In this document: in pieces, positions 16,283-29,870 of the stretch
How the letters are laid out: each line of letters begins with the position of its first letter
Numbering within the stretch: the first letter of the stretch is position 1
From: Marivivens sp.
Lineage (GTDB): Bacteria > Pseudomonadota > Alphaproteobacteria > Rhodobacterales > Rhodobacteraceae
Length of the DNA: 42,564 nt
NCBI GenBank assembly: GCA_024642185.1
Contig: JAHEBR010000002.1
Coordinates: 1-42,564, forward strand
Direction: 5' to 3'
Notes under the pieces: generated by a model
Databases searched by the model: none
What the model was told of the DNA's origin: nothing
Seen by the model: the letters and a program-made list of their open reading frames with translations, nothing else
Position numbers and translations under genes: made by a program

Positions 16283-16708
16283 ATGCAAATACGCCCGATC
16301 ACAGATAAATACGCAGTCTCGCCGCAGATTGATCCCGCCGATGTTCCGGCGATCAAGGCGGCGGGATTTACCACGGTCATCTGCAACCGCCCCGATGCCG
16401 AGGTTCCGATGGAGCTTCAGTCGGCCGTGATGCGCATTGCGGTGGAGGCGGCGGGGCTGACCTTCGTCGACATCCCCGTAAGCCATCAGACGCTCAACCT
16501 CGGCATGGTCGAGGCGCAATTCGCAGCGATCGACGCTTCGGCAGGACCGGTTTTGGCCTACTGCGCCTCGGGCAATCGCTGTTCGATCGTCTGGAGCCTT
16601 GGGCAGGCAGGCAAATTGCCGGTGGACGAGATTATCGCGACCGTAGCGCGGGCCGGATACGATCAGTCGGCCCTTCGGCCACAGCTGGAAGCGCTGTCGC
16701 GTCGTTAG
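16283..16708 (+). CDS. TIGR01244 family sulfur transferase / phosphatase-like protein (copy 1)
   Basis: A 141-residue single-domain protein of the DUF442/TIGR01244 group, a tyrosine-phosphatase-like fold often fused or adjacent to persulfide dioxygenases and YeeE proteins. The P-loop is CASGNRC (Cys94 to Cys100) with Arg99 in place. The residue after Arg, usually Ser or Thr, is a second cysteine here, which could allow a Cys94-Cys100 disulfide or polysulfide. N-terminal ICNRPDAE is the family marker. It is third in the pmpA-pmpB operon, with a weak ribosome site. A paralogue lies at 40614 beside blh. The likely job is persulfide or sulfane-sulfur handling; phosphatase activity is possible but less likely by context. 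Confidence 0.88.
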   Translation: MQIRPITDKYAVSPQIDPADVPAIKAAGFTTVICNRPDAEVPMELQSAVMRIAVEAAGLTFVDIPVSHQTLNLGMVEAQFAAIDASAGPVLAYCASGNRCSIVWSLGQAGKLPVDEIIATVARAGYDQSALRPQLEALSRR

Positions 16709-17685
16709 TCATCAAAGCCTTGGATCGGCGTTGGCTCTCCCAACGGGTCTTCGACTGTGTCGTCCGGCAGCCGCATCCGAGGGGCGTTGAAGTGTCCGCC
16801 TTCTTCCATCGCGATCTCGGGCCTTGGTTCGACCCGGACCGCCCGCATCCCTCCCGATTGCCCAAGCCGGCAATTTGCGATGCAGCTACCGTCTGATGCT
16901 TCAAGGCTGACAGCGCTGATATCCAGCTCCAAAAGCGGCAGCACCTGACCGACCTTCAACGTTTCCGCAATTGCCAGCGGCAACCGCAGGCGGCCAAGGA
17001 CCGCCTCGACCTCGGTCGGCGTCTGCATGACAACTTCGTTCATCTGTACCGGCCAGCCTGCACGGCCGCGACGCTCGGGGTGATCTTCTGGCGCGGCAAT
17101 GGCCACCGGTAAAGCAAAGGCGATTTCGCCCTGACGCCCGCCGGCCCCAAGATCGAGTGTCATGCGAAAGATTTTGTAGGCGCGCTCCGGCAATGCCAGG
17201 CGGAGCGCCATCACACCGGAAAACTTGCGCCCGACGGCGATCGTAGGAAACCAGTCCCCCGGCGAAGAGGTGCCGCAGTCGCGCTGAATGGCCGTCATGA
17301 GCCCCGTCAGGAACGGCTCGACTAGGGCGGCGTCAACTTCTGTCGGACTTCGGACTTCGGCGGTGACAGGTCTGATCCGGCCTGTGGTCATCATCTCCCC
17401 GGCAGCCGCCAAGACTTCAGGATCAGCGATGACGAGGCCGACCAGCCCTTCGGGCGCAACGAGTCCGATAAGGCAATGCCCCTTGCCCAGAGGAGAAACG
17501 AGATCGTCCAGCCCGCTTTGAGCGATCTCGACGCCGATCACGTCGATCTCTGCGCCAAAAACATCCCGCGAGGCCCGCGCGACTGCCATCCGCAAAGCGC
17601 GCATTGGCGTTTGCGAGCCGCCGCCTTCGGCCTGCGCAGGTTTTGCAAGCTTGCGCGCCAGTATTCCTGCACTTGCCGTGGACAT
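16705..17685 (-). CDS. FliM/FliN-family flagellar motor switch-like protein (orphan)
   Basis: A 326-residue soluble protein. The middle segment (about residues 60-200) resembles the FliM CheC-like domain in length and predicted strands. The C-terminal part (about 222-285: VEAVLGRLRLPLAIAETLKVGQVLPLLELDISAVSL split over the segment) is a recognisable SpoA surface-presentation domain as in FliM/FliN. It ends in a charged tail. The N-terminal EIDD-type CheY-binding motif of FliM is not visible. ATG at 17685 is preferred to GTG at 17688 because GGAAGG lies 7 bases upstream. No other flagellar genes occur in the window. Convergent with the TIGR01244 gene (4-bp overlap). Confidence 0.8.
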   Translation of the reverse strand: MSTASAGILARKLAKPAQAEGGGSQTPMRALRMAVARASRDVFGAEIDVIGVEIAQSGLDDLVSPLGKGHCLIGLVAPEGLVGLVIADPEVLAAAGEMMTTGRIRPVTAEVRSPTEVDAALVEPFLTGLMTAIQRDCGTSSPGDWFPTIAVGRKFSGVMALRLALPERAYKIFRMTLDLGAGGRQGEIAFALPVAIAAPEDHPERRGRAGWPVQMNEVVMQTPTEVEAVLGRLRLPLAIAETLKVGQVLPLLELDISAVSLEASDGSCIANCRLGQSGGMRAVRVEPRPEIAMEEGGHFNAPRMRLPDDTVEDPLGEPTPIQGFDD

Positions 17686-17751
17686 CACCCTGCCTTCCGC
17701 TGTCGTGCAGAAATTAGGACGTCGTTGCTAACAAATGATTGCCTGAGGCCG

Positions 17752-20412
17752 CTATGGCAGGATCACCCGAAACGCTGCGCCGCCTTGTCCCGGCAAATAC
17801 GAAATCGACCCGCCGAGCCGGATCATGATCTCGCGACAGATCGCAAGGCCAAGCCCGGCACCGCCCGCTTTGCGGTGATCAGAAAGGCGCGAAAACTTTT
17901 CGAAGATCATTTCCTGATGTTCCTTGCCGATACCCGCACCATTGTCGATGAAATCAACCGCCATCCTGCCACCCGCCTTGCGCACCACAATCCTCAGCAC
18001 GGGCTCGGCCGCAGTGCAGTATTTCTGGGCATTGGCGATGAGATTGATGAACACCTGCGTCAAGCGGTCTAGGTCCGTGTCCAGTGCAATCGCTTCCTCT
18101 GCCCGCTTGCGCTGGATCTTGATCGCGCTTTCGCCAACGACAGAGGCCGCGATAGCCCGGTCGATCACATCGCGCAGGTGCCCTTCTTGCCGGCTCAACG
18201 TGCCCTGCCCGTTTTCAAGAACATTGAGATCGAGAAGATCGTCCAGAAGCCGGGTGAGCCGCACCGCCTCGTCATGGATAATACCCGCGTGTCGCGCCTG
18301 CATTTCCGCAGAAGCTCCACCTTCGCGCAGAATGTCCGAGAAGGATCGGATCGAGGTCATTGGCGTTCTCAGTTCATGGCTGATCTGACCTAGGAAGGCG
18401 TCTTTCTGGATCGACAGGGCGGTCAGCTTTTCATTCGCCTCCTGCAATTGCCGCGCGGTACGTTCCTGTTCGGCGGACTTGGCTTCAAGACGAGAGGAAT
18501 ACTCCATGATCTGAGCGGTCTCGTCCGCCACGGCGATCAGGTCTTCCACCGAAACGCTGGCCCCCTGCACCAGTTGCCCCACCATCGCGTGAGCCGTTGC
18601 CGCCCCCACCGAGCCGGCAAGCTCGCGCTCGAGATCCTCAACGAACTTGGGTGTCACTTCGGGCAGATACCCCTCCTTCCCTTGAAGCCGGGCCTCGCGC
18701 TGAAAAATGTCCTGTGCCTCGGTCGAGCCCAATATCCTTTGGGCCATTACCAAGAGGTCTTCGGCCTCGGCGCCACCATGCGTCCACGACCGGGTGCCGG
18801 TGGAATGTTCGAAAACGTCGACGAACTGCGCCCCCTGAAGCCGCTCGAGCGGGAGAGGAAATGTCAGGACCGAACCGATCACAAACGCGGCCGAATTGAG
18901 CAGCATCGACCACAAGACCGCATGAATGACGGGATCGAGCCCGGCAAACCCAAAGAGCGCCTGGGGGCGGAGCCAAGCCAAGCCAAACGGCCCCTGTTCC
19001 AAAACGATCTGCGGAATGACCTCACCTGCCCCGAACGAAGGCAAGAACAAGGACCAGGCCCAAATCGCAAATCCCGTGATCAGCCCTGCAGCGGCGCCCC
19101 AGCGCGTGGCTCCGCGCCAATAGAGGCCGCCAATCATCGACGGAAGGATCTGCACCACGCCGGTAAAAGAGATCAGGCCAATCGCCGCCAGAGCCTCACC
19201 GCCGCCTGAGAGGCGATAGTAGACATAGCCAAGCAGCAGGACGCCACCAATGGACAGTCGACGCGCCAAGAGCACCGCATAGCGCACATCGCCCGACATC
19301 ATAGCCCCGCCGGCCCGGCTCGACAGCCAGATCGGCACGACGATGTGGTTCGACACCATCGTCGAGAGCGCGATGGTGGCAACGATGACCATTGAGGTCG
19401 CTGAGGAAAACCCGCCAAGGAAGGACAGGATGGCAAGGCCCGAGCGCCCTTCCGCAAGCGGCACGGTCAGAACGAACAGGTCGGGGTTTGATCCGTCCGG
19501 CAAAAGATCGAGGCCGACCACCGCGATCGGCACGACGAACAGGCTCATGACCATCAAATAAAGCGGAAAGGCCCAGCTGGCGGTTGAGAGCCGGCTTTCG
19601 TCATCGTTCTCGACCACGAGAACCTGAAACATCCGTGGCAGGCAAAGGAACGCCGCGCCGGACAGAAAGATCAGACCGAACCACCTTCCGCCCGGCGGCG
19701 ACCATTCCGCGATCTTCGACGCATCGATCAAATCGAGAGTTGGCCCTACCCCGCCGGCCACCCCCCAGACGACGAAAACCCCGACCGCCACAAGCGCGCA
19801 GAGCTTGACCACCGCTTCGACGGCGATCGCCATGACGATGCCATTGTGGCGCTCGTTGGCGTCAAGGTTCCGTGTTCCGAAAATCACGGTGAAAAGCGTC
19901 AGGCCGACCGCCACCCAAAGTGCTGCCGAGGCCAGCTCCGGTGCGCCCCAGTTCTGACCAGAGGCATTGGCGAACACCGCTGTCGAAAGCGTCACGGACT
20001 GAAGCTGAAGGGCGATATAGGGGGTCGCCGCGACCACCGCGATCAGGGTGACGATCACGCCCAGTGCTGTCGATTTGCCAAACCGAGACGAGATGAGATC
20101 GGCGATAGAGGTGATGCGCTGGCTGCGGCCGATCCGGACAAGTTTGCGCAGGACCCACCACCAGCCGATCATCACAATGGTCGGGCCCAGATAGATCGTG
20201 ATGAATTCGAGGCCCGAGCGAGCCGCATAGCCGACGGCCCCGTAGAAGGTCCAAGCCGTGCAATAGATCGAAAGCGAAAGAGTATAGACCAGCGACGACC
20301 GAAGCCACTTGCCCCTCCCGCGTTCGGCCTGCCTTTCGGCGACAAAGGCGATGATGAAGAGAAAGGCCACATAGGCCAGCGAGACAGCGACCAGAAGATT
20401 GAAGGAGACCAT
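17752..20412 (-). CDS. SLC5-STAC sodium/solute symporter-histidine kinase fusion (CrbS/CbrA type)
   Basis: An 886-residue sensor kinase whose input part is a sodium:solute symporter of about 13 transmembrane helices (residues about 5-520). A cytoplasmic STAC domain follows (about 540-620, LERELAGSVGAATAHAMV), then a short coiled coil, a HisKA domain with phosphoacceptor His679 in FLGQISHELRTPMTSI, and a HATPase_c domain with N box (NLIANAQKY), G1 (DFIDNGAGIG) and G2 (GAGLGLAI) motifs. There is no PAS domain, unlike CbrA. Relatives include CrbS, which controls acs in the acetate switch, fitting the nearby acs gene. The start overlaps the stop of the small membrane protein gene (TGATG). Ligand unknown; acetate or another short carboxylate is inferred from context. 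Confidence 0.92.
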   Translation of the reverse strand: MVSFNLLVAVSLAYVAFLFIIAFVAERQAERGRGKWLRSSLVYTLSLSIYCTAWTFYGAVGYAARSGLEFITIYLGPTIVMIGWWWVLRKLVRIGRSQRITSIADLISSRFGKSTALGVIVTLIAVVAATPYIALQLQSVTLSTAVFANASGQNWGAPELASAALWVAVGLTLFTVIFGTRNLDANERHNGIVMAIAVEAVVKLCALVAVGVFVVWGVAGGVGPTLDLIDASKIAEWSPPGGRWFGLIFLSGAAFLCLPRMFQVLVVENDDESRLSTASWAFPLYLMVMSLFVVPIAVVGLDLLPDGSNPDLFVLTVPLAEGRSGLAILSFLGGFSSATSMVIVATIALSTMVSNHIVVPIWLSSRAGGAMMSGDVRYAVLLARRLSIGGVLLLGYVYYRLSGGGEALAAIGLISFTGVVQILPSMIGGLYWRGATRWGAAAGLITGFAIWAWSLFLPSFGAGEVIPQIVLEQGPFGLAWLRPQALFGFAGLDPVIHAVLWSMLLNSAAFVIGSVLTFPLPLERLQGAQFVDVFEHSTGTRSWTHGGAEAEDLLVMAQRILGSTEAQDIFQREARLQGKEGYLPEVTPKFVEDLERELAGSVGAATAHAMVGQLVQGASVSVEDLIAVADETAQIMEYSSRLEAKSAEQERTARQLQEANEKLTALSIQKDAFLGQISHELRTPMTSIRSFSDILREGGASAEMQARHAGIIHDEAVRLTRLLDDLLDLNVLENGQGTLSRQEGHLRDVIDRAIAASVVGESAIKIQRKRAEEAIALDTDLDRLTQVFINLIANAQKYCTAAEPVLRIVVRKAGGRMAVDFIDNGAGIGKEHQEMIFEKFSRLSDHRKAGGAGLGLAICREIMIRLGGSISYLPGQGGAAFRVILP

Positions 20413-20687: not shown

Positions 20688-21056
20688 CTAGGTCGTCACG
20701 AGAGCACGGACGTTTTCGATCACCTCGGCATTTGAAAAGGGCTTGGTGATGAAACGGTTGACCCCGAGTTTCTCGGCAAGTTCCCGGTCGCGGGTTTGTC
20801 CCCTCGCGGTCAGCATCAAAACCGGCAGGGCCTGCATCTCGGGATCGGCCCGAAGATCGCGCAGAATGTCAAAGCCGCTCTTTCCGGGTAGCATGACGTC
20901 GAGGATCACCAAATCCGGCGGCGTGGCGCGGATCCGCTCGTTGGCGTTTACGCCATCGGAATGGGTGTGCACCGTCCAGCCATCCCGCGAGAGGATGAAA
21001 CTGAGCGCCTCGATAATATTGGGTTCGTCCTCGATCACCAGGACACGTTTGCCCAT
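20688..21056 (-). CDS. Receiver-only (CheY-like) response regulator
   Basis: A 122-residue protein consisting of one receiver domain and no output domain. The acidic pair in VIEDEPN, the phosphoacceptor Asp in VILDVMLPGKSG, the conserved Thr of LTARG and the Lys of TKPF are all present, so it should accept phosphate. The ATG at 21056 (MGKRVLVIEDE) is chosen over a TTG at 21074; GGGAGGGG lies upstream. It sits in an operon between the XRE-type regulator and the symporter-kinase and is the obvious partner of the kinase. With no DNA-binding domain it must act through another protein. Confidence 0.92.
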   Translation of the reverse strand: MGKRVLVIEDEPNIIEALSFILSRDGWTVHTHSDGVNANERIRATPPDLVILDVMLPGKSGFDILRDLRADPEMQALPVLMLTARGQTRDRELAEKLGVNRFITKPFSNAEVIENVRALVTT

Positions 21057-21146
21057 AGCCCATGCCCCTCCCAAGGCTCTGTGCGATCCGGTCGTTGCCG
21101 CCGACTATCACGGCAAAGCCGTGGGCTGTCAAAGCCCCAAGGGCGA

Positions 21147-22442
21147 TCAGGCCAGAAGGCTCGGCTCGCGCCGGGCCGGACAGGCAGGCCGCGGGCAGAT
21201 GCGGCAGCCGCCCCCCGCATCAAGCGCGGCTGTTTCGCCGGCAGGCGCCGCCTGCACCAGCATCACCGCCTCGACTGGCGAGAGCCCGTCAAACCGCAAA
21301 GGGCCGAGCGGCCCGGCAATTGCGTGGCAGAGAAAACGGCGCCCACCCTCGCCCGGCAGGGCGACGATCGCGCGGATCGGCTGGCCGGGGCGCGACAGCG
21401 CCTGAAACAGCGGCCATACAGGACAGGCCGCCACAGCACGTGGCAGGCCAAAGCCCTCGATCGTCTTGAGGCGCGTCACAGCGCCCGCCCCATCGCAAGA
21501 GGCAAAACCAAAGGCCGGATGCGCCGGGCGCTCAGGAAGGCTCGATAGGCGCCGCAGGATGGCGGCCGGTCCGACCCCAAACATTTCCGCCAGAAGCGCC
21601 GGGTCGTGGCGCCTTTCGATCGCGGCGGCCTCGAAAGCGCCGAGAGGCATGGCCTGAGCATCATCCCGATAAACGCCGAGGCGGCCCCGCAGAAGGACTT
21701 CTGCCGCCGGTCCTGTCAGCGCCGCCGCAACGACCAACTCCTCAACCACTGCATCGGAGTGGGCCGGTCCTTCCAGATCAGCGATGTGATGCCCGTGCCT
21801 GTCGAAATAGGCCTCAACCTCTTCAACCGGAGACAACGCCATAGCCCCGCCATCGGCGGGGGCTTCGAGATAGCCGACAAGGGCGCGGCTGCTGTCGGCA
21901 AGACGCTGGCTGTCGTTATAGATGTTGCGATGAAATCGTTCCTGCCAGTCGCGGTCCAGAACCTCGCCGCCAACCAGAATCGAGGAGGTGGACCGGATTG
22001 ATGTCACTGCAGAAATTACCTCGTGCAACGATGTTGAAAGCTGCGGATCATGCGCCATCCTGTCCGTAAGCGATTTGACCCTGGCTTCAAGCCGGGCAAT
22101 CTGCGCCGCCTGATCCGTCACAAGGCCAGCCCAGCCGGGAAAGCGCCCTGCGAACTCTTCTGTTCGGTTGATTTCAGCATCAGCCGCAGGTCGCGTCGCG
22201 GCAGCTCCGCGCAAATCCTGGATCAACGCGGTTTCCGCGCCTTCGGAAAGCTGCGTCGGATCAAGGCCGAGGGCGCGGGCAAGATCGTTAAGAACGCGGC
22301 CACCGATTCTGCGCCGGTTGTGCTCGATAAGATTGAGATAGGACGCAGATATTCCGGCGGCCTTGGCCAGATCGGCCTGCCGCATCGCAGCATCCAGCCT
22401 GCGTTCTCGAATTCGGGAGCCTGTGAGTTGCCGCTGGGTCAC
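21147..22442 (-). CDS. XRE-family short-chain fatty acyl-CoA regulator (ScfR/RamB/PccR type)
   Basis: A 431-residue transcription factor starting with GTG at 22442. Residues about 8-65 are a Cro/C1-type HTH (RIRERRLDAAMRQADLAKAAG, SYLNLIEHNRRRI). The C-terminal half matches DUF2083, ending in the family cysteine motif GGCRICPRPACPAR. RamB, PccR and related ScfR proteins sense acyl-CoAs and control acetate or propionate assimilation genes. Unusually, residues about 133-195 look like a histidine-kinase dimerisation/phosphoacceptor hairpin: HEVISAVTSIRSTSSIL from His140 matches HELRTPMTSIRSFSDIL of the kinase in the same operon at 10 of 17 positions. It heads an operon with the receiver, the small membrane protein and the kinase, and diverges from the ABC-acs operon. 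Confidence 0.9.
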   Translation of the reverse strand: MTQRQLTGSRIRERRLDAAMRQADLAKAAGISASYLNLIEHNRRRIGGRVLNDLARALGLDPTQLSEGAETALIQDLRGAAATRPAADAEINRTEEFAGRFPGWAGLVTDQAAQIARLEARVKSLTDRMAHDPQLSTSLHEVISAVTSIRSTSSILVGGEVLDRDWQERFHRNIYNDSQRLADSSRALVGYLEAPADGGAMALSPVEEVEAYFDRHGHHIADLEGPAHSDAVVEELVVAAALTGPAAEVLLRGRLGVYRDDAQAMPLGAFEAAAIERRHDPALLAEMFGVGPAAILRRLSSLPERPAHPAFGFASCDGAGAVTRLKTIEGFGLPRAVAACPVWPLFQALSRPGQPIRAIVALPGEGGRRFLCHAIAGPLGPLRFDGLSPVEAVMLVQAAPAGETAALDAGGGCRICPRPACPARREPSLLA

Positions 22443-22488
22443 TTTACGCCTGACATTTTCAGTTGATTTCCGGTGCTTTCTGCAGATG

Positions 22489-22540
22489 CAAGCAAATTAC
22501 TTTACAAACTACACTCAGAATTTGTGTAAGTCTTTACAAA
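22489..22540. promoter_or_regulatory. Two operator-like sites between the ScfR-type regulator and the ABC-acs operon
   Basis: In the AT-rich part of the 225-bp divergent gap lie CAAGCAAA-TTAC-TTTACAAA (22489-22508) and TTTGTGTA-AGTC-TTTACAAA (22521-22540). Each is a pair of 8-mers separated by 4 bp, the layout I recall for the PccR site in Rhodobacter sphaeroides (TTTGCAAA-N4-TTTGCAAA). The two sites start 32 bp apart, about three helical turns. The second is also an imperfect palindrome. They are the likely binding sites of the adjacent regulator. Confidence 0.6.
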
Positions 22541-22667
22541 ATTTTTATTTCTCTTGAGGGACTTGTTGCGAATTTTTCGAACCGCGTCCGATAATGACGG
22601 CAGCATTGTAAAATGCGTGCAGTCGGAGTGTGGAGGCTTCGGCAGCTATCATGAAAGGGAGGGACTC

Positions 22668-24014
22668 ATGTCCAAAATGAACTTCTCACGTCGTGGCGTG
22701 CTGAAGACAGGTGCCGTAACCGGCGCCGGTCTTGCGCTTCCGACTATCTTCACGTCCTCGGCTTCGGCCTATACCAACGAACCGACCGGCTCCTCGGTCA
22801 AGTTCGGCTTCAACGTTCCCCAGACCGGCCCCTACGCCGAAGAGGGCCTCGACGAGCTTCGCGCCTTTGAGCTCGCCGTTCAGCACCTCAATGGCGAGGG
22901 CGACGGCGGCATGCTCAACACGATGTCGTCGAAAACCCTCGGCGGCAACGGCGTTCTCGGCAAGAAGGTCGAGTTCGTCACCGGCGACACCCAGACAAAA
23001 TCTGACGTGGCGCGGGCATCGGCTCAGTCGATGATCCAGAAAGACGGCGTTGTCATGGTTTCCGGCGGTTCATCGTCGGGTGTGGCCGTTGCGGTTCAGA
23101 GCCTTTGCCAGGAAGCCGGCATTATCTTCATGGCCGCGCTGACCCACTCGAACGACACCACGGGCAAGGACCGGAAAGCCAACGGCTTCCGCTACTTCTT
23201 CAACGCCTATATGTCGGGCGCTGCTATCGCTCCGGTGCTCTCGAGCGCCTATGGCAACGAGCGCCGCGCCTACCACCTGACCGCCGACTACACCTGGGGC
23301 TGGACCCAGCAGGAATCGATCGCGGCCTCGACCGAAGCCCTTGGTTGGGAAACCGTCTCCAACGTGCTGACCCCGGTCGGCGCCGGCGACTTCTCGTCCT
23401 ATATCGCTCCGGTGATCAACTCGGGCGCGGATGTTCTGATCCTGAACCACTACGGCGGAGACATGGTCAACTCGCTCAGCCAGGCTGTTCAGTTTGGTCT
23501 GCGCGACAAGATGGTGAACGGCAAGCAGTTCGAGATCATCGTTCCGCTCTACTCGGAGCTGATGGCTGCGGGCGCTGGCTCCAACATTCAGGGTGTCTAT
23601 GGCACCATGAACTGGAACTGGCAGCTGCAGGATCCGGGCACCCAGGCTTTCGTCAAGTCGTTTGGCGAAAAGTATGGCCGTCCGCCGTCAGGCGCCGCCC
23701 ACACCGCCTATGTGCAGACCCTGCTCTATGCGGATGCGGCCACCCGTGCGGGCACCTTCGAGCCCTGCCAGATCGGGGCCGCCCTTGAGGGCTTCGAGTT
23801 CGACGGCATGGGTATCGGCCCGACAACCTACCGCGCCGAAGACCACCAGTGCTTCAAGGACGTGCTCGTCATGAAGGGCAAAGACAGCCCGGCCAACGAA
23901 TACGATACCCTTGAGATCGTCGAAGTGACCCCGCGCGCTCAGGTCGAGTATGCGGCCGATCACCCGATGTTCGGTGGTGCCGAGGCCAGCCTCGGCGAAT
24001 GCAACAACGGCTAA
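22668..24014 (+). CDS. Liv-type ABC transporter substrate-binding protein, Tat-exported
   Basis: A 448-residue periplasmic binding protein of the branched-chain amino acid/urea/amide family (Peripla_BP_6). The N-terminus has a twin-arginine signal (FSRRGVLK then a hydrophobic stretch, ASA cleavage near residue 34), so it is probably exported folded. The fold markers FGFNVPQTGPYAEEG and VSGGSSSGVAVAVQSLCQEAG are present. The ATG at 22668 follows AAAGGGAGGGA; the frame runs further upstream without support. First gene of a six-gene operon ending in acs. Family name suggests amino acids or amides, but the acs and ScfR neighbours point to a short-chain carboxylate or a compound that yields acetate; this is inference. 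Confidence 0.92.
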   Translation: MSKMNFSRRGVLKTGAVTGAGLALPTIFTSSASAYTNEPTGSSVKFGFNVPQTGPYAEEGLDELRAFELAVQHLNGEGDGGMLNTMSSKTLGGNGVLGKKVEFVTGDTQTKSDVARASAQSMIQKDGVVMVSGGSSSGVAVAVQSLCQEAGIIFMAALTHSNDTTGKDRKANGFRYFFNAYMSGAAIAPVLSSAYGNERRAYHLTADYTWGWTQQESIAASTEALGWETVSNVLTPVGAGDFSSYIAPVINSGADVLILNHYGGDMVNSLSQAVQFGLRDKMVNGKQFEIIVPLYSELMAAGAGSNIQGVYGTMNWNWQLQDPGTQAFVKSFGEKYGRPPSGAAHTAYVQTLLYADAATRAGTFEPCQIGAALEGFEFDGMGIGPTTYRAEDHQCFKDVLVMKGKDSPANEYDTLEIVEVTPRAQVEYAADHPMFGGAEASLGECNNG

Positions 24015-24110: not shown

Positions 24111-25130
24111 ATGGACGCTTTATTCCTCCAGATCCTCAACGGGCTTGAAAAAGGTGGTGCCTATGCGCTGATCGCGATGGGCCTTACGCTTATTTTCGGC
24201 ACGCTGGGCGTGGTCAATTTCGCGCACGGCGCGCTTTTCATGATCGGCGCCTTCGTGGCCGTCACGATGCAGCGCATCTTTAACATCAGCCTCGAGATCG
24301 TCGACGCGACCCAGAAGGATTTTCTGGGCAATCCGCTCAAGGTCAAGGTCCCCTATGTGATCGAATGGTTTGGCGAGGGCTTCGGCGGCTTCCTGATTGA
24401 TTGGTCGGTGCCTCTGGCGATCTTGCTCGCCATCCCTGTCATGATGCTGGTTGGTTTCGTGATGGAGCGCGGCCTGATCAAGCATTTCTACAAGCGTCCG
24501 CACGCCGACCAGATCCTCGTAACCTTTGGCCTCGCCATCGTTCTTCAGGAAATCGTCAAGTATTTCTTCGGCGCCAACCCGATCCCGACCCCCGCGCCGT
24601 CCGACTATCGCGGCACGATTGATATGGCTTTCTTCGGCCTGAACCTCTCCTACCCTATCTGGCGCCTGATCTACTTCTTCTTCTCGGCCGCCGTGATCGC
24701 CGCTGTCTTTGCCTTCCTACAATTCACAACTTTCGGCATGGTTGTCCGCGCGGGCATGGCCGACCGCGAGACCGTGGGCCTTCTCGGCATCGACATCGAC
24801 CGCCGCTTTACCCTGATGTTCGGCATTGCTGCCGCTGTCGCGGGCCTTGCGGGTGTGATGTATACGCCAATCCTGTCGCCCAACTATCATATGGGAATGG
24901 ACTTCCTCGTGCTGTCGTTCGTTGTCGTTGTTGTCGGCGGCATGGGCTCCTTGTCGGGAGCCGTGGCAGCGGGATTCCTTTTGGGCATCCTCCAGGCCTT
25001 TGCCTCGATGAACGAGGTAAAGGACATCATTCCCGGTATCGACCAGATCATCATCTATCTCGTCGCCATCGTCATTCTGCTTACCCGTCCGCGTGGCCTT
25101 CTGGGCCGCAAGGGCGTGATGGAGGACTAG
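24111..25130 (+). CDS. ABC transporter permease, LivH type
   Basis: A 339-residue inner-membrane permease with about 8-9 helices. The N-terminal block ILNGLEKGGAYALIAMGLTLIFGTLGVVNFAHGALFMIGAF is the LivH/UrtB hallmark (quoted blockwise: NGLEKGGAYALIAMG, TLGVVNFAHG). The ATPase-contact loop GMADRETVGLLGIDIDR lies about residue 220. A roughly 30-residue insert between helices 2 and 3 (QRIFNISLEIVDATQKDFLG) is longer than in typical LivH. ATG at 24111 follows AAGGACAGGGTGGGACC. Second gene of the transporter operon; it is followed 3 bp later by the LivM-type gene. Confidence 0.92.
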   Translation: MDALFLQILNGLEKGGAYALIAMGLTLIFGTLGVVNFAHGALFMIGAFVAVTMQRIFNISLEIVDATQKDFLGNPLKVKVPYVIEWFGEGFGGFLIDWSVPLAILLAIPVMMLVGFVMERGLIKHFYKRPHADQILVTFGLAIVLQEIVKYFFGANPIPTPAPSDYRGTIDMAFFGLNLSYPIWRLIYFFFSAAVIAAVFAFLQFTTFGMVVRAGMADRETVGLLGIDIDRRFTLMFGIAAAVAGLAGVMYTPILSPNYHMGMDFLVLSFVVVVVGGMGSLSGAVAAGFLLGILQAFASMNEVKDIIPGIDQIIIYLVAIVILLTRPRGLLGRKGVMED

Positions 25131-25133
25131 TCC

Positions 25134-26324
25134 ATGCTCGGCCTGTCGCAAAAAGACACCCGCTTTCTCTTCATCGTCATTGCACTGACCCTGCTGACGC
25201 CCTTCCTTCTCAACCCCTTCCCGACCGACTCGGCGCTGGCGCAGTTCAACGCGGGCTATCCGGCCCTGATGCAGCGTTTTGCGATCTATGGCCTCATGGC
25301 GATCGGGTTCAACATCCTCTTCGGCCTGACCGGATACCTCTCCTTCGGCCACGCCGCCTTCCTCGGCGTCGGCTCCTACGCTGCGGTGTGGATGTTCAAG
25401 CTTCTGTCGATGAACGTTTTGCCGGCTATCATCATGGCGACGCTGCTGGCCGGCCTCTTTGCGCTTGTCATCGGCTTCATCTCACTGCGGCGCTCGGGCA
25501 TCTACTTCTCGATCCTGACGCTCGCATTTGCCGAGATGTCCTATCGTCTGGCCTATTCGGTCTTTACACCGGTCACCAACGGCGAATCGGGTTTGCAGCT
25601 TGGCCTCAAGGATCCGCGCATCCTTGACGCGCCGCTGACATCGGCCAGCCTGCCCGTGCCGGGCCTCTTCGGGCTTAAGATGAACTCGAGCTGGACCCTC
25701 GACCTTGGCCCCTGGGATTTCACCTTCAACGTCGGCTACTATTTCTGCGCCGTGGTGGCGATCCTCGGCTTCTACCTCAGCCTGAGAATCTTCCGCTCGC
25801 CCTTTGGCCTTATGCTGCGGGCGATCAAATCGAACCAGAACCGCCTCAACTATACTGGCCTCAACTCACGCCCCTACACTCTTGCAGCATTCGTGATCTC
25901 GGGGATGTATGCCGGCCTCGCCGGTGGCCTCCTTGCGGCAATGGATCCGCTGGTGGGGGCCGAAAGGATGCAGTGGACCGCGTCTGGCGAGGTCGTCTTG
26001 ATGACCATTGTGGGCGGCGTCGGCACGCTGATGGGCCCTGTCCTTGGCGCGGGCTTCATCAAATATGCCGAGAACATCTTCTCGAAGATCAACGAGAGCA
26101 TCCTTCACAGCTGGTTCAGCTGGCTGCCGGACGGGCTTGAGGATGCCGTTGTCTGGATCTTCGCCCGCTTCGTCGGCGAAGGCTGGCACCTGACGCTGGG
26201 CCTGATGTTCATGGTCATCGTGATCGCCCTGCCCGGCGGCCTCGTCGAAGGGGGGCAGCGCATCGCCCGCTTCTTGCGCCGCAAGTCGGACGACAGCGCC
26301 GCCACCACAACGCCCGCCGAATAG
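25134..26324 (+). CDS. ABC transporter permease, LivM type
   Basis: A 396-residue membrane protein, about 10 helices, pairing with the LivH-type permease. The LivM marker [20 protein letters not shown] is present at about residues 56-75, and the coupling loop appears as [25 protein letters not shown] cytoplasmic tail of about 25 residues ([15 protein letters not shown]) closes it. It starts 3 bp after the previous stop and is followed by an AGGGAGAA ribosome site for the next gene. Some residues between helices ([20 protein letters not shown]) form a larger periplasmic loop. Confidence 0.93.
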
Positions 26325-26334
26325 GGAGAAACCC

Positions 26335-27093
26335 ATGAGCATTCTCGAAGTCAAAGGCGTCAACAAGCGCTTCGGCGGCCTTCAGGCGCTTGGAAACGTG
26401 AACCTCAGCGTGAAGGAAGACACCTGCCACGCGATCATCGGCCCCAATGGCGCCGGCAAATCGACCCTTCTGAACTGCCTCGTCGGCAAGCTGATCCCCG
26501 ACAGCGGCTCGGTCGTCTTCGACGGCCAGTCGGTCCTCGGCCGCAAGCCGCACGAGATCAACCAGATGGGCATCAGCCGGGTATTCCAGACACCGGAAAT
26601 CTTTGGCGATCTCACGGTCATCGAAAACGTGATGATCCCCTGCTTTGCCAAGCGCGACGGCTCATTCCGGATGCACGCCTATGAGGCGGTTCATCAGGAG
26701 AAGGGGATCATTGAGCAGGCCGAGGCAATTCTTGCCGACGTCAATATGCTCGACAAGCGGCACATGCACGCCGCTTCGCTCAGCCGTGGCGACAAGCGCC
26801 GCCTCGAGATGGCCATGTGCCTCGTGCAGGAGCCGCGCCTTCTTTTGCTCGACGAGCCGACCGCCGGTATGGCGCGTGCCGATACCAACAACACGATCGA
26901 GTTGCTCAAGGAGATCCGCAAGAAGCGTAGGATCACCATGGCGATCATCGAACACGACATGCATGTGGTGTTCAGCCTCGCCGAAAGGATCACCGTTCTG
27001 GCGCAGGGCACGCCTCTGGTGGAAGACACTCCGGAGAACATCAAGGGCCATCCGAAGGTGCGCGAAGCGTATCTTGGTGAAGCTCAAGTCTAG
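26335..27093 (+). CDS. ABC transporter ATP-binding protein, LivG type
   Basis: A 252-residue ATPase. Walker A is GPNGAGKST, Walker B is LLLLDEPTAG, and the switch His is in IIEHDM. The signature motif reads LSRGDKRR instead of LSGGQ, reminiscent of the LSHGQK form in urea-type LivG relatives (UrtD). The GISRVFQTPEIFGDLTVIEN block is the usual Q-loop region. Fourth gene of the transporter operon, 10 bp after the LivM-type gene and 11 bp before the LivF-type gene. Confidence 0.93.
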   Translation: MSILEVKGVNKRFGGLQALGNVNLSVKEDTCHAIIGPNGAGKSTLLNCLVGKLIPDSGSVVFDGQSVLGRKPHEINQMGISRVFQTPEIFGDLTVIENVMIPCFAKRDGSFRMHAYEAVHQEKGIIEQAEAILADVNMLDKRHMHAASLSRGDKRRLEMAMCLVQEPRLLLLDEPTAGMARADTNNTIELLKEIRKKRRITMAIIEHDMHVVFSLAERITVLAQGTPLVEDTPENIKGHPKVREAYLGEAQV

Positions 27094-27104: not shown

Positions 27105-27878
27105 ATGACCCACGTTGAGCAAAAGAGCATTGACGGCCGCTTCGACAAAGACCGCAACATGGCGGCCACCGCGCCCAAATTCCTGTCTGTCTGGGATATC
27201 CGCGCCTACTATGGCGAGAGCTATATCGTTCAGGGCGTGAGCTTTGATATCCATGAGGGCGAAATCCTTGCCCTTCTCGGCCGCAATGGCGCCGGCAAGA
27301 CCTCGACCCTACGCGCCATCGCCCGGCTCGATGATCCCGCGCTCAAGCACGGCGAGATCTGGCTCGATCACAAACCGCTGCACGAGATGAAGGCCTTTCA
27401 GGCCGCACAGGCCGGGATCGCGCTCGTTCCCGAAGACAGGCGCATCATCCCGGGCCTCACGGTCGAGGAAAACCTGCAACTGGCACAGATCGCCCCGCCC
27501 AAGGGCTGGTCACTCGCGCGCATCTATGAGCTCTTCCCGCGCCTGGGCGAGCGCCGCAAGCAGGAAGGCACGACCCTGTCGGGCGGCGAACAGCAGATGT
27601 TGGCCATCGCCCGCGCCCTGGCCCGCGACATCAAGGTTCTGCTCCTTGACGAGCCCTACGAGGGCCTCGCCCCGGTGATCGTTCAGGAAATCGCCAAGAC
27701 CCTCGCCATTATCCGCGACCAAGGCATTACCACGATCATCGTCGAGCAAAACGCCGTTGCCGCGCTGAAACTCGCTGATCGCGCCGTGATCCTCGACACC
27801 GGAACCGTGGTTTATGACGGCTCGGCACAGGAAGTGCTTGATGACGAGGCGCTGAGAGCGAAATATCTCGCCATCTGA
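27105..27878 (+). CDS. ABC transporter ATP-binding protein, LivF type
   Basis: A 257-residue ATPase with Walker A (GRNGAGKTS), a canonical signature TLSGGEQQMLAIARAL, Walker B (VLLLDEPYEGLAP) and VEQNA at the switch region, all as in LivF/UrtE. The first 25 residues (MTHVEQKSIDGRFDKD and on) are an extension before the usual LivF start; the ATG at 27105 is kept because AGGGAAGAA precedes it, while the internal ATG at 27159 has no ribosome site. Fifth gene of the operon. With the LivG-type subunit it would form the ATPase heterodimer. Confidence 0.92.
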   Translation: MTHVEQKSIDGRFDKDRNMAATAPKFLSVWDIRAYYGESYIVQGVSFDIHEGEILALLGRNGAGKTSTLRAIARLDDPALKHGEIWLDHKPLHEMKAFQAAQAGIALVPEDRRIIPGLTVEENLQLAQIAPPKGWSLARIYELFPRLGERRKQEGTTLSGGEQQMLAIARALARDIKVLLLDEPYEGLAPVIVQEIAKTLAIIRDQGITTIIVEQNAVAALKLADRAVILDTGTVVYDGSAQEVLDDEALRAKYLAI

Positions 27879-27910: not shown

Positions 27911-27935
27911 CACCCACCAAGAATTGGGGAAAGCC

Positions 27936-29870
27936 ATGACCAAACTCTATCCGCCCTCCGCCGATTTCGCGGCCAACGCCCATATCGACAAAGCCAAGTA
28001 TGACGAGATGTATGCGGCCTCGGTAGCCGACCCAGACAAGTTCTGGGCCGAACACGGCAAGCGGATCGACTGGATCAAGCCCTTCTCCAAGGTCAAGAAC
28101 ACAACCTTCGCCTATCCCGATGTCTCGATCAAATGGTTCGAGGACGGCGAGCTTAACGTCGCGGCCAACTGCATCGACCGTCACCTCGAGACCCGCGGCG
28201 ACCAGATCGCGATCATCTGGGAAGCGGACGATCCCAATATCTCCAAGCACATCACCTATCTCGAGCTTTCCGAGCAGGTGAACAAATTCGCCAACGTCCT
28301 GAAATCCCAAGGCGTCAAAAAAGGCGATCGCGTCATCCTCTATATGCCGATGATCCCCGAGGCCGCCTACGCCATGCTAGCCTGCGCCCGCGTCGGCGCG
28401 GTGCATTCCATCGTGTTCGCCGGCTTCTCGCCCGACGCGCTCGCCAGCCGCATCTCCGACTGCAGCGCCTCGCTCGTCATCACCGCCGATGAGGCCCCGC
28501 GCGGCGGCAAGAACACACCGCTGAAGGTCAACGTCGACAAGGCCATGGCGATCTGCGGCGATGTGAAAACCCTCGTGGTCGAGCGCACCGGCGGTAGCGT
28601 GCCGATGAAAGAAGGGCGCGACACCTATCTCCACACGGTCATGGCCCATGCCTCGACCGATTGCCCGCCCGAGGTGGTGAACGCCGAAGACCCGCTCTTT
28701 ATCCTCTACACCTCCGGCTCAACCGGCAAACCCAAGGGCGTCTTGCATACCTCGGGCGGCTATCTCGTCTGGGCCTCGATGACCCACGAGATGGTGTTCG
28801 ACTATCACGACGGCGATATCTACTGGTGCACCGCCGACGTGGGCTGGGTCACTGGCCACAGCTATATCGTCTATGGCCCGCTCGCCAACGGCGCGACGAC
28901 GCTGATGTTCGAAGGCGTGCCCTCCTACCCCGATTTCGGTCGCTTCTGGGCGGTTTGCGAGAAGCACAAGGTCAACCAGTTCTACACCGCCCCCACCGCG
29001 ATCCGCGCGCTCATGGCGCATGGGCCCGACTGGGTAAACAAGCACGACCTCTCGTCGCTCAAAGTCCTTGGCACCGTGGGCGAGCCGATCAACCCCGAGG
29101 CCTGGAACTGGTATAACGACGTGGTCGGCAAAGGCACCTGCCCGATCGTCGACACCTGGTGGCAGACCGAAACCGGCGGCCACCTGCTGACCCCCCTCCC
29201 CGGCGCCATCGCCACCAAGCCGGGCTCGGCCACCGTGCCCTTCTTCGGCGTCCAGCCGGTGATCCTCGATCCCACCACGGGCCAGGAAATCACCGAGACC
29301 GCCGCCGAAGGCGTCCTGTGCATGAAAGACAGCTGGCCCGGCCAGATGCGCTCGGTTTTCGGCGATCACGAGCGCTTCGTGAAAACCTATTTCTCCGACT
29401 ACAAGGGCTATTACTTCTCCGGCGACGGCTGCCGCCGCGACGAAGACGGCTACTACTGGATCACCGGCCGCGTCGATGACGTGATCAACGTCTCCGGCCA
29501 CCGGATGGGCACCGCCGAGGTCGAAAGCGCGCTTGTCGCCCACCCCAAGGTCTCCGAATCTGCCGTCGTCGGATTCCCGCACGAGATCAAGGGCCAAGGC
29601 ATCTACTGCTACGTCACCCTGATGGATGGCGAGGAATATACCGACGCGCTGAAAACCGAGCTGCGCAACTGGGTCCGCAAGGAAATCGGCCCTATCGCCT
29701 CGCCCGATGTAATCCAGTGGGCGCCGGGCCTGCCGAAAACCCGCTCGGGCAAGATCATGCGCCGTATCCTGCGCAAGATCGCCGAAAACGATTTCGGCGC
29801 TTTGGGCGATACCTCGACCCTCGCCGACCCTTCCGTGGTCGACGACCTGATCGCAAACCGCGGCAAGTAA
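27936..29870 (+). CDS. acs: Acetyl-CoA synthetase (acetate-CoA ligase, AMP-forming)
   Basis: A 644-residue ANL-family enzyme activating acetate with ATP and CoA via acetyl-AMP. Motifs: [11 protein letters not shown] (P-loop), the acyl-pocket Trp in [10 protein letters not shown], the hinge region [22 protein letters not shown], and the catalytic lysine Lys606 in [10 protein letters not shown], the site that Pat-type acetyltransferases modify in other bacteria. Length matches Acs. Trp in the TWWQTE motif favours acetate over longer acyl substrates. ATG at 27936 follows GGGGAAA. Last gene of the operon behind the Liv-type importer and followed by a strong terminator. Confidence 0.97.

Follow-up and report, generated by a model that had tools for sequence, protein, structure and literature searches.

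A two-box operator upstream of a transporter-acs operon in Marivivens sp. and its predicted regulator, an ScfR-type protein with a DHp-like insertion

The window, that is, the whole 42,564-nt stretch analysed (Marivivens sp., contig JAHEBR010000002.1 of assembly GCA_024642185.1), contained a regulator gene, hereafter REG, that is divergent from the gene of an ABC substrate-binding protein. The 225-bp gap between these two genes held two operator sites. The features of the locus were as follows (coordinates, strand, description):

17752..20412, minus strand: sensor histidine kinase, 886 aa, with a putative SLC5-like transporter domain, HisKA and HATPase_c
20688..21074, minus strand: receiver-only response regulator (PF00072), 128 aa, no output domain
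21147..22442, minus strand: REG, 431 aa, with XRE-HTH, DHp-like insertion and ScfR C-terminal domain (PF01381, PF09856; PrpR structure matches)
21864..22142, minus strand: DHp/HisKA-like insertion of REG, residues about 101-193, with acceptor-type His140 (codon 22023-22025)
22477..22496, no strand assigned: further conserved, palindrome-like element, TTTCTGC-N4-GCRNRAAA, present only at loci with the transporter divergent from REG
22489..22508, plus strand: operator site 1, CAAGCAAA-TTAC-TTTACAAA; right half TTTACA invariant in relatives, left half degenerate (RAWAA)
22493..22506, plus strand: box 1 in the 14-bp register of the Paracoccus denitrificans RamB boxes, CAAATTACTTTACA (oligonucleotides in PMC10370305, Table 3)
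22521..22540, plus strand: operator site 2, TTTGTGTA-AGTC-TTTACAAA; inverted repeat with half-site YTGTGYA
22525..22538, plus strand: box 2 in the 14-bp RamB register, TGTAAGTCTTTACA, inverted repeat TGTAA-N4-TTACA; 18-bp gap to box 1
22562..22595, plus strand: conserved sigma-70 type promoter of the transporter-acs operon, CTTGTTGCGAATTTTTC; -35 TTGCGA (22566-22571), -10 GATAAT (22590-22595), 18-bp spacer
22668..24014, plus strand: ABC substrate-binding protein (Peripla_BP_6, Tat signal)
24111..25130, plus strand: ABC permease 1 (BPD_transp_2)
25134..26324, plus strand: ABC permease 2 (BPD_transp_2)
26335..27093, plus strand: ABC ATPase 1
27105..27878, plus strand: ABC ATPase 2
27924..29870, plus strand: acs, acetate--CoA ligase (score far above the TIGR02188 cut-off), last in the operon

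A FliM/FliN-like gene (16705-17688) adjoined the kinase gene, and the same neighbour was annotated in Paracoccus ferrooxidans (L205). By eye, the segment 14811-16708 beside the acetate cluster encoded an ArsR-type regulator, YeeE/YedE-type membrane proteins and a small sulfurtransferase-like protein.

The two 20-bp sites were present as first described, at 22489-22508 and 22521-22540, with starts 32 bp apart, or three helix turns. Their surroundings were AT-rich, as had also been claimed: the 50 bp from 22495 to 22544 were 24% GC, the lowest value in the gap. The preliminary description had read each site as two TTTGCAAA-like 8-mers 4 bp apart. This likeness held for the right halves, with one mismatch each, and was lost in the left halves, with three each. 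The 8-4-8 register suited site 2 and not site 1, the left half of which is degenerate; as a TTTGCAAA-like octamer, that left half (CAAGCAAA) was without conservation in relatives.

One 8-4-8 site of the quality seen in the window, taken alone, is not rare by chance: a single site with four or fewer mismatches in all occurred in 131 of 2000 shuffled gaps. The pair, rather than the single site, is far above chance. Among gap shuffles, the fraction with an exact TTTACA pair at 32 bp was 5e-5, and a TTTACAAA-TTTACAAA pair at this distance appeared in none of 20,000. In the genome scan the perfect pair at 32 bp was unique in 2.46 Mb; when two mismatches were allowed, the genome count of the pair pattern was no higher than that of the reversed control. 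Scanning the genome with the literal PccR motif, TTTGCAAA-N4-TTTGCAAA, returned three-mismatch matches only, none at the window site, and TTTGCAAA with one mismatch was no more frequent in the window than by chance. A one-mismatch TTTACA pair elsewhere (G000:C142) was dropped; it lay inside an isocitrate-dehydrogenase-type gene.

Of 61 related genomes, 43 had a REG ortholog at the loosest cut; in about 28 of these the identity was 42-90%. Further orthologs were collected from 80 named loci in other Rhodobacteraceae. Ungapped alignments comprised 17 orthologous gaps at first and 69 afterwards. Absence of the sites from orthologous gaps had been named as the outcome that would speak against them; the comparison answered in favour of the sites, with the exact TTTACA pair at 32 bp kept in 52/69 gaps and one or two mismatches in the remaining gaps. 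Any other TTTACA spacing occurred at most six times in the 69 gaps, and shuffled versions of the orthologous gaps yielded no pairs. T-T-T-A-C was conserved at both right halves, and position 4 was A in 69/69 gaps in both boxes. In site 2 the strongest columns spelled TGT..A over -10 to -5 in the left half, where TGT occupied -10 to -8 and A stood at -5, and TTTACAAA over 0 to 7. These columns were symmetric about the 4-bp spacer in the 69 gaps, in agreement with the 8-4-8 form predicted for operators of an ScfR-type regulator. Conservation was weaker in the left half of site 1, amounting to RAWAA only. Taken together, the operator is almost certainly real. Six loci (L103, L108, L115, L135, L137, L140) had a third TTTACA 42 bp after box 2.

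The promoter TTGCGA-N18-GATAAT was found independently by a consensus scan. By pattern, the -35 element stood at +30 in 65/69 gaps, and both elements stood at +30/+57 in 46/69; the distance from box 2 to the promoter is, in these alignments, fixed in most relatives. The preliminary description had placed the sites over promoter elements in one or both directions. For the transporter promoter this was not so: the conserved -35 and -10 elements lie just downstream, and the sites are therefore upstream of this promoter and not on it. If the start site is set by convention near 22602, the dyads (22498.5 and 22530.5) would fall at about -103 and -71 on one helix face, a placement that would be as for activators contacting RNA polymerase from upstream. 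In the 69 gaps, conservation around the -35 element (22562-22578, TTRTTGCGAAATTTTC) reached well past the hexamer, which would suit a further factor or a third site at this place. The TTTCTGC-N4-GCRNRAAA element overlapped the left half of site 1, and was absent at lone acs genes and upstream of most regulators without a transporter.

A 56-nt sequence model (R1), built from 38 other species with the window excluded, detected the window site (22489-22542) at E=1e-8 and gave one strong match in most REG-bearing genomes. Eight family genomes (G014, G016, G019, G020, G025, G026, G028, G030) had a match away from REG, and the next gene was acs in all eight; five of these matches were exact pairs and three had one mismatch, at 32 bp. 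No such pair was found at the acs promoters of five genomes without a REG ortholog (G012, G018, G021, G027, G034), in which the acs genes compared were 69-76% identical. Second acs copies in REG-bearing G008 and G015 carried the pair with no and one mismatch, respectively. Exceptions were G032 and G033, with weak or absent pairs at acs; some REG-bearing genomes (G015, G030, G032) had only weak operators, and acs was not the next gene in about half of the transporter loci. Because the operator stands upstream of acs away from REG and is missing at acs in genomes without REG, it is read as the operator of the acs operon. These genome comparisons showed an operator under strong constraint, found only together with REG and staying with acs where that gene has another location.

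The sites could conceivably repress or autoregulate REG, as an operator over the REG promoter with secondary effects on the transporter. Their distance upstream of the REG start is indeed 49-100 bp, within a divergent gap, and ScfR regulators are often autoregulated (PMC3420887); even so, we consider this reading very improbable. At REG loci without an adjoining transporter the pair was mostly absent upstream of REG, so autoregulation through the sites is not their conserved function, and in those family genomes it stood at acs instead. The consensus scan also found no sigma-70-like REG promoter over the sites. As far as the genomes compared indicate, the operator goes with acs and with REG, not with REG's own promoter.

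REG carried an N-terminal XRE-type HTH (PF01381, HTH_3; 42 bits, cut-off 23) and the C-terminal ScfRs domain (PF09856; 46.8 bits, cut-off 24) of the short-chain fatty acyl-CoA regulators, ScfR/IsaR. Its top PDB relative, both by sequence (E=1e-33) and by fold, was PrpR of Mycobacterium tuberculosis, and the structure comparison matched REG to CoA-bound PrpR. Cysteines C339, C412, C415 and C420 were invariant in the 26 sequences of the first alignment and match the PrpR cluster ligands C363 and C447-X2-C-X4-C455 (PMC6765138). PrpR (MccR; PDB 6CYJ/6CZ6) thus shares with REG the C-terminal CoA/[4Fe-4S] fold and the four cysteines, and differs in its site (TTTGCAAA-N1-TTTGCgAA), its methylcitrate target and its lack of receiver and kinase partners (PMC6765138, PMC3420887). 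The IrrE/M78-like middle domain of PccR, RamB2 and the longer DHp-bearing relatives described below was reduced in REG to a C-terminal remnant with a score below cut-off (E=0.16); its absence is seen as a putative loss within the ScfR family. In a tree with PccR, MccR and RamB2 references (RamB2-type represented by the single sequence L222; rows ScfR_L213 and ScfR_L221 ignored for wrong frames and long branches), REG formed its own clade apart from the references (99/100 support, stem 1.4). On sequence grounds, REG is a new ScfR subclass.

About 70 residues were inserted in REG that profile comparison found to be homologous to the DHp domain of histidine kinases. Residues about 101-193 of REG read SLHEVISAVTSIRSTSSILVGGEVLDRDWQERFHRNIYNDSQRLADSSRALVGYL and the counterpart in the operon kinase reads ISHELRTPMTSIRSFSDILREGGASAEMQARHAGIIHDEAVRLTRLLDDLLDL. 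In hhalign the insertion matched the operon kinase at E=2e-7, His on His, and at E=7e-6 with all 80 REG sequences. The H-E/D-x-x-S/T box typical of HisKA had its His in 80/80 REG sequences, the adjacent E/D in 75/80 and S/T at +4 in 79/80. PccR, MccR and RamB2 had no residues at the insertion in the alignment, and their profile against the kinase gave E=0.41 (hhalign). Among the best 50 matches listed in a fold search with REG were PrpR and HTH proteins and no kinase DHp domain; the DHp domain was therefore assigned from sequence profiles. Pfam HisKA matched no REG protein; the claim for REG accordingly draws on profile comparison and on collinearity with a relative in G043, which matched Pfam HisKA at 33.8 bits (cut-off 26.9) and the kinase-derived profile at 55 bits, and with which REG residues 7-264 aligned at 33% identity.

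The same insertion was carried by four longer ScfR proteins found in other genera and families, namely this relative (L217), L216 (G037), L215 (G012) and L220 (G021). They are about 530-560 aa long and contain HTH, DHp-like, M78 and ScfR domains. All four adjoined a receiver gene, with a kinase next door in three of them. They look like an unreduced form of the window REG. The G021 protein has Tyr in place of the acceptor His, and phosphotransfer is therefore not general to all members with the insertion. The insertion is very probably homologous to a DHp domain. Full-text literature searches turned up no report of a DHp domain within any ScfR or XRE factor, which is not proof of absence; REG with its DHp-like insertion is a variant for which no description was found in the literature searched.

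The order REG, receiver, kinase was kept in about 77 of 80 loci. In nearly all loci the receiver was 118-136 aa long and without an output domain, and its Asp and Thr were kept in 77/77 of the receivers found. Over about 560 columns, fold matches to the N-terminal half of the kinase included SGLT1, vSGLT and CHT1, with a low-confidence model (pLDDT 61). Pfam SSF had no match in the kinase; a relative in P. ferrooxidans is annotated by NCBI as a sodium:solute symporter. An SLC5-type fold is thus assigned tentatively, at low confidence. For the ABC transporter, the literature on marine transporters (PMC10130141) offered no acetate transporter as a parallel. In Vibrio and Pseudomonas, acs is under the control of an SLC5-type kinase, CrbS, which acts via the DNA-binding CrbR (PMC5715377). 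The sensor kinase here is likewise of putative SLC5 type, and control of acs by it is predicted. CrbR is a LuxR-type DNA-binding response regulator. The receiver here lacks a DNA-binding domain, which raises the question by what route the signal gets to DNA, and the predicted DNA-binder is an ScfR protein with a DHp-like domain. In the Spo0F-Spo0B phosphorelay a single-domain receiver works with a DHp-fold His protein that has no kinase domain; the predicted pairing of such a receiver with a DHp-fold partner is alike, except that the transcription factor here holds the DHp-like domain as an insertion. The REG relative of P. ferrooxidans (40% identity) adjoined a 120-aa response regulator and the 'sodium:solute symporter'; directly upstream of this REG gene lay the genes of a further kinase and of a DNA-binding response regulator (L205 6872-8961). 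Pden_1785, mentioned in passing as an uncharacterised member of the ScfR network beside a two-component system (PMC10370305), probably belongs to the same clade as REG.

PccR of Rhodobacter sphaeroides, which Carter & Alber are said to have described in 2015, reportedly acts on pccB through paired TTTGCAAA 8-mers 4 bp apart. Like REG it is of the ScfR family, and both have paired 8-mers 4 bp apart. PccR has the TTTGCAAA core, the IrrE/M78 domain and no DHp insertion; REG has the TTTACA core and the insertion, lies outside the PccR clade and neighbours the ABC transporter, acs and two-component genes rather than pccB. At 18 PccR-type loci examined, exact TTTGCAAA stood upstream of the regulator in 15 and TTTACAAA in none, against A at position 4 in 69/69 REG gaps. 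The suggestion that the T-to-A change marks a different specificity is borne out by this contrast. In G004 (locus L210), of the same genus, a separate PccR-type gene near a propionyl-CoA-carboxylase-type gene had TTTGCAAA upstream of both. The recognition helix was x-x-YLN-L-IE in all REG sequences scanned (77/77). With few exceptions, PccR-type proteins had YLN-Q-ME in its place; the L form (S-A-S-YLN-L) recurred in the RamB2-type protein of L222. In the 431-aa REG of the window this Leu is residue 38. We take the Leu/Gln position to correspond to the base-contacting Gln of 434 repressor, and Leu versus Gln would be a candidate for the TTTA/TTTG switch.

The sites could still be ordinary PccR-like operators, with REG a PccR relative that senses acetyl- or propionyl-CoA, responds to ligand alone and has two-component genes beside it only incidentally. 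The 8-4-8 half-site geometry, the CAAA ends, the shared ScfR C-terminal domain and the TTTGCAA-like left halves of a few gaps (L011, L027) would suit such a reading. It is nevertheless unlikely given the separate clade of REG, the different operator core and recognition helix (YLNL in the 77 REG sequences versus YLNQ in PccR), and a linkage of REG with the response regulator and kinase too regular to be incidental.

A closer parallel was found in class-2 RamB of P. denitrificans (Pden_1365, gc promoter), which has two boxes with an 18-bp gap, both needed in vivo for activation (PMC10370305). Comparison of wild-type with mutated oligonucleotides (PMC10370305, Table 3) placed the mutated boxes at 17 and 49 of an 80-mer, a 32-bp period; in the same register, window box 2 reads TGTAAGTCTTTACA and the RamB box TGACAAACCTTACA. 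The two systems share the ScfR family, two near-identical boxes with the same gap and period, a TTACA core and TGTG at the same place in one box. Class-2 RamB activates an acetate gene set in a divergent gap, and an activator role is predicted for REG. The RamB2 examined (L222) had the same recognition-helix triad as REG. The targets differ, as RamB acts on malate synthase/isocitrate lyase and the REG locus has neither, its predicted target being acs. In RamB2 the M78 domain is intact and the DHp insertion missing, and RamB2 falls in a separate clade. 'PccR-like' was thus not the best label for sites with a TTTACA core and the two-box, 32-bp layout of class-2 RamB: the operator belongs to a known layout as a new representative whose core differs. 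BLAST of the RamB 80-mer against 298 family genomes gave short chance matches only, and orthologous RamB sites could not be collected by that route. In the gap of the RamB2-type L222, a TTTACA was followed 32 bp on by TGTAAA, too weak to count.

That RamB2 shares the architecture and the S-A-S-YLN-L helix also bears on which protein binds the pair. Binding by REG is a prediction, and another XRE factor could be the binder. A different transcription factor altogether, be it another XRE protein or a DNA-binding response regulator, with the role of REG elsewhere, has only a slim chance of being correct: operator presence tracked REG presence across the genomes examined, and the genome of the window encodes one ScfR. 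With considerable confidence, the operator is predicted to be bound by REG.

The preferred reading is a two-box operator through which the adjacent REG, a regulator with two inputs, activates the divergent transporter-acs operon. The SLC5-type kinase would sense an outside compound, for which acetate or a related acid would fit acs, and would phosphorylate the receiver-only response regulator. The receiver may then dock on the DHp-like domain inside REG and probably exchange phosphate with it. A second condition would reach REG as acyl-CoA through the PrpR-like C-terminal domain with its [4Fe-4S]-type cysteines. Two REG dimers, or a tetramer, would occupy the boxes on one helix face, with centres about 71 and 103 bp ahead of the predicted start, and box-bound REG would activate the conserved sigma-70 promoter. 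Activation of transporter-acs is likely, and the explanation as a whole is nearly as likely. For a functional relay or docking step the chances are even or slightly better. The chances are about even that REG is the end of a His-Asp-His phosphorelay, by transfer or docking, and that this one protein, at the acs operator, reads both an outside signal and an intracellular acyl-CoA/Fe-S signal.

These results predict a dedicated control circuit for acetate activation in Rhodobacteraceae, in which the protein, the DNA and the target are named. They also contrast the TTTACA and TTTGCAAA specificities of ScfR regulators and offer a single candidate residue, Leu versus Gln. If the DHp-like domain works, it would explain how a response regulator without an output domain reaches DNA: the transcription factor itself would be the histidine partner of the receiver, a route not found described in the literature searched, and a membrane sensor could switch on the genes of acetate uptake and activation via REG.
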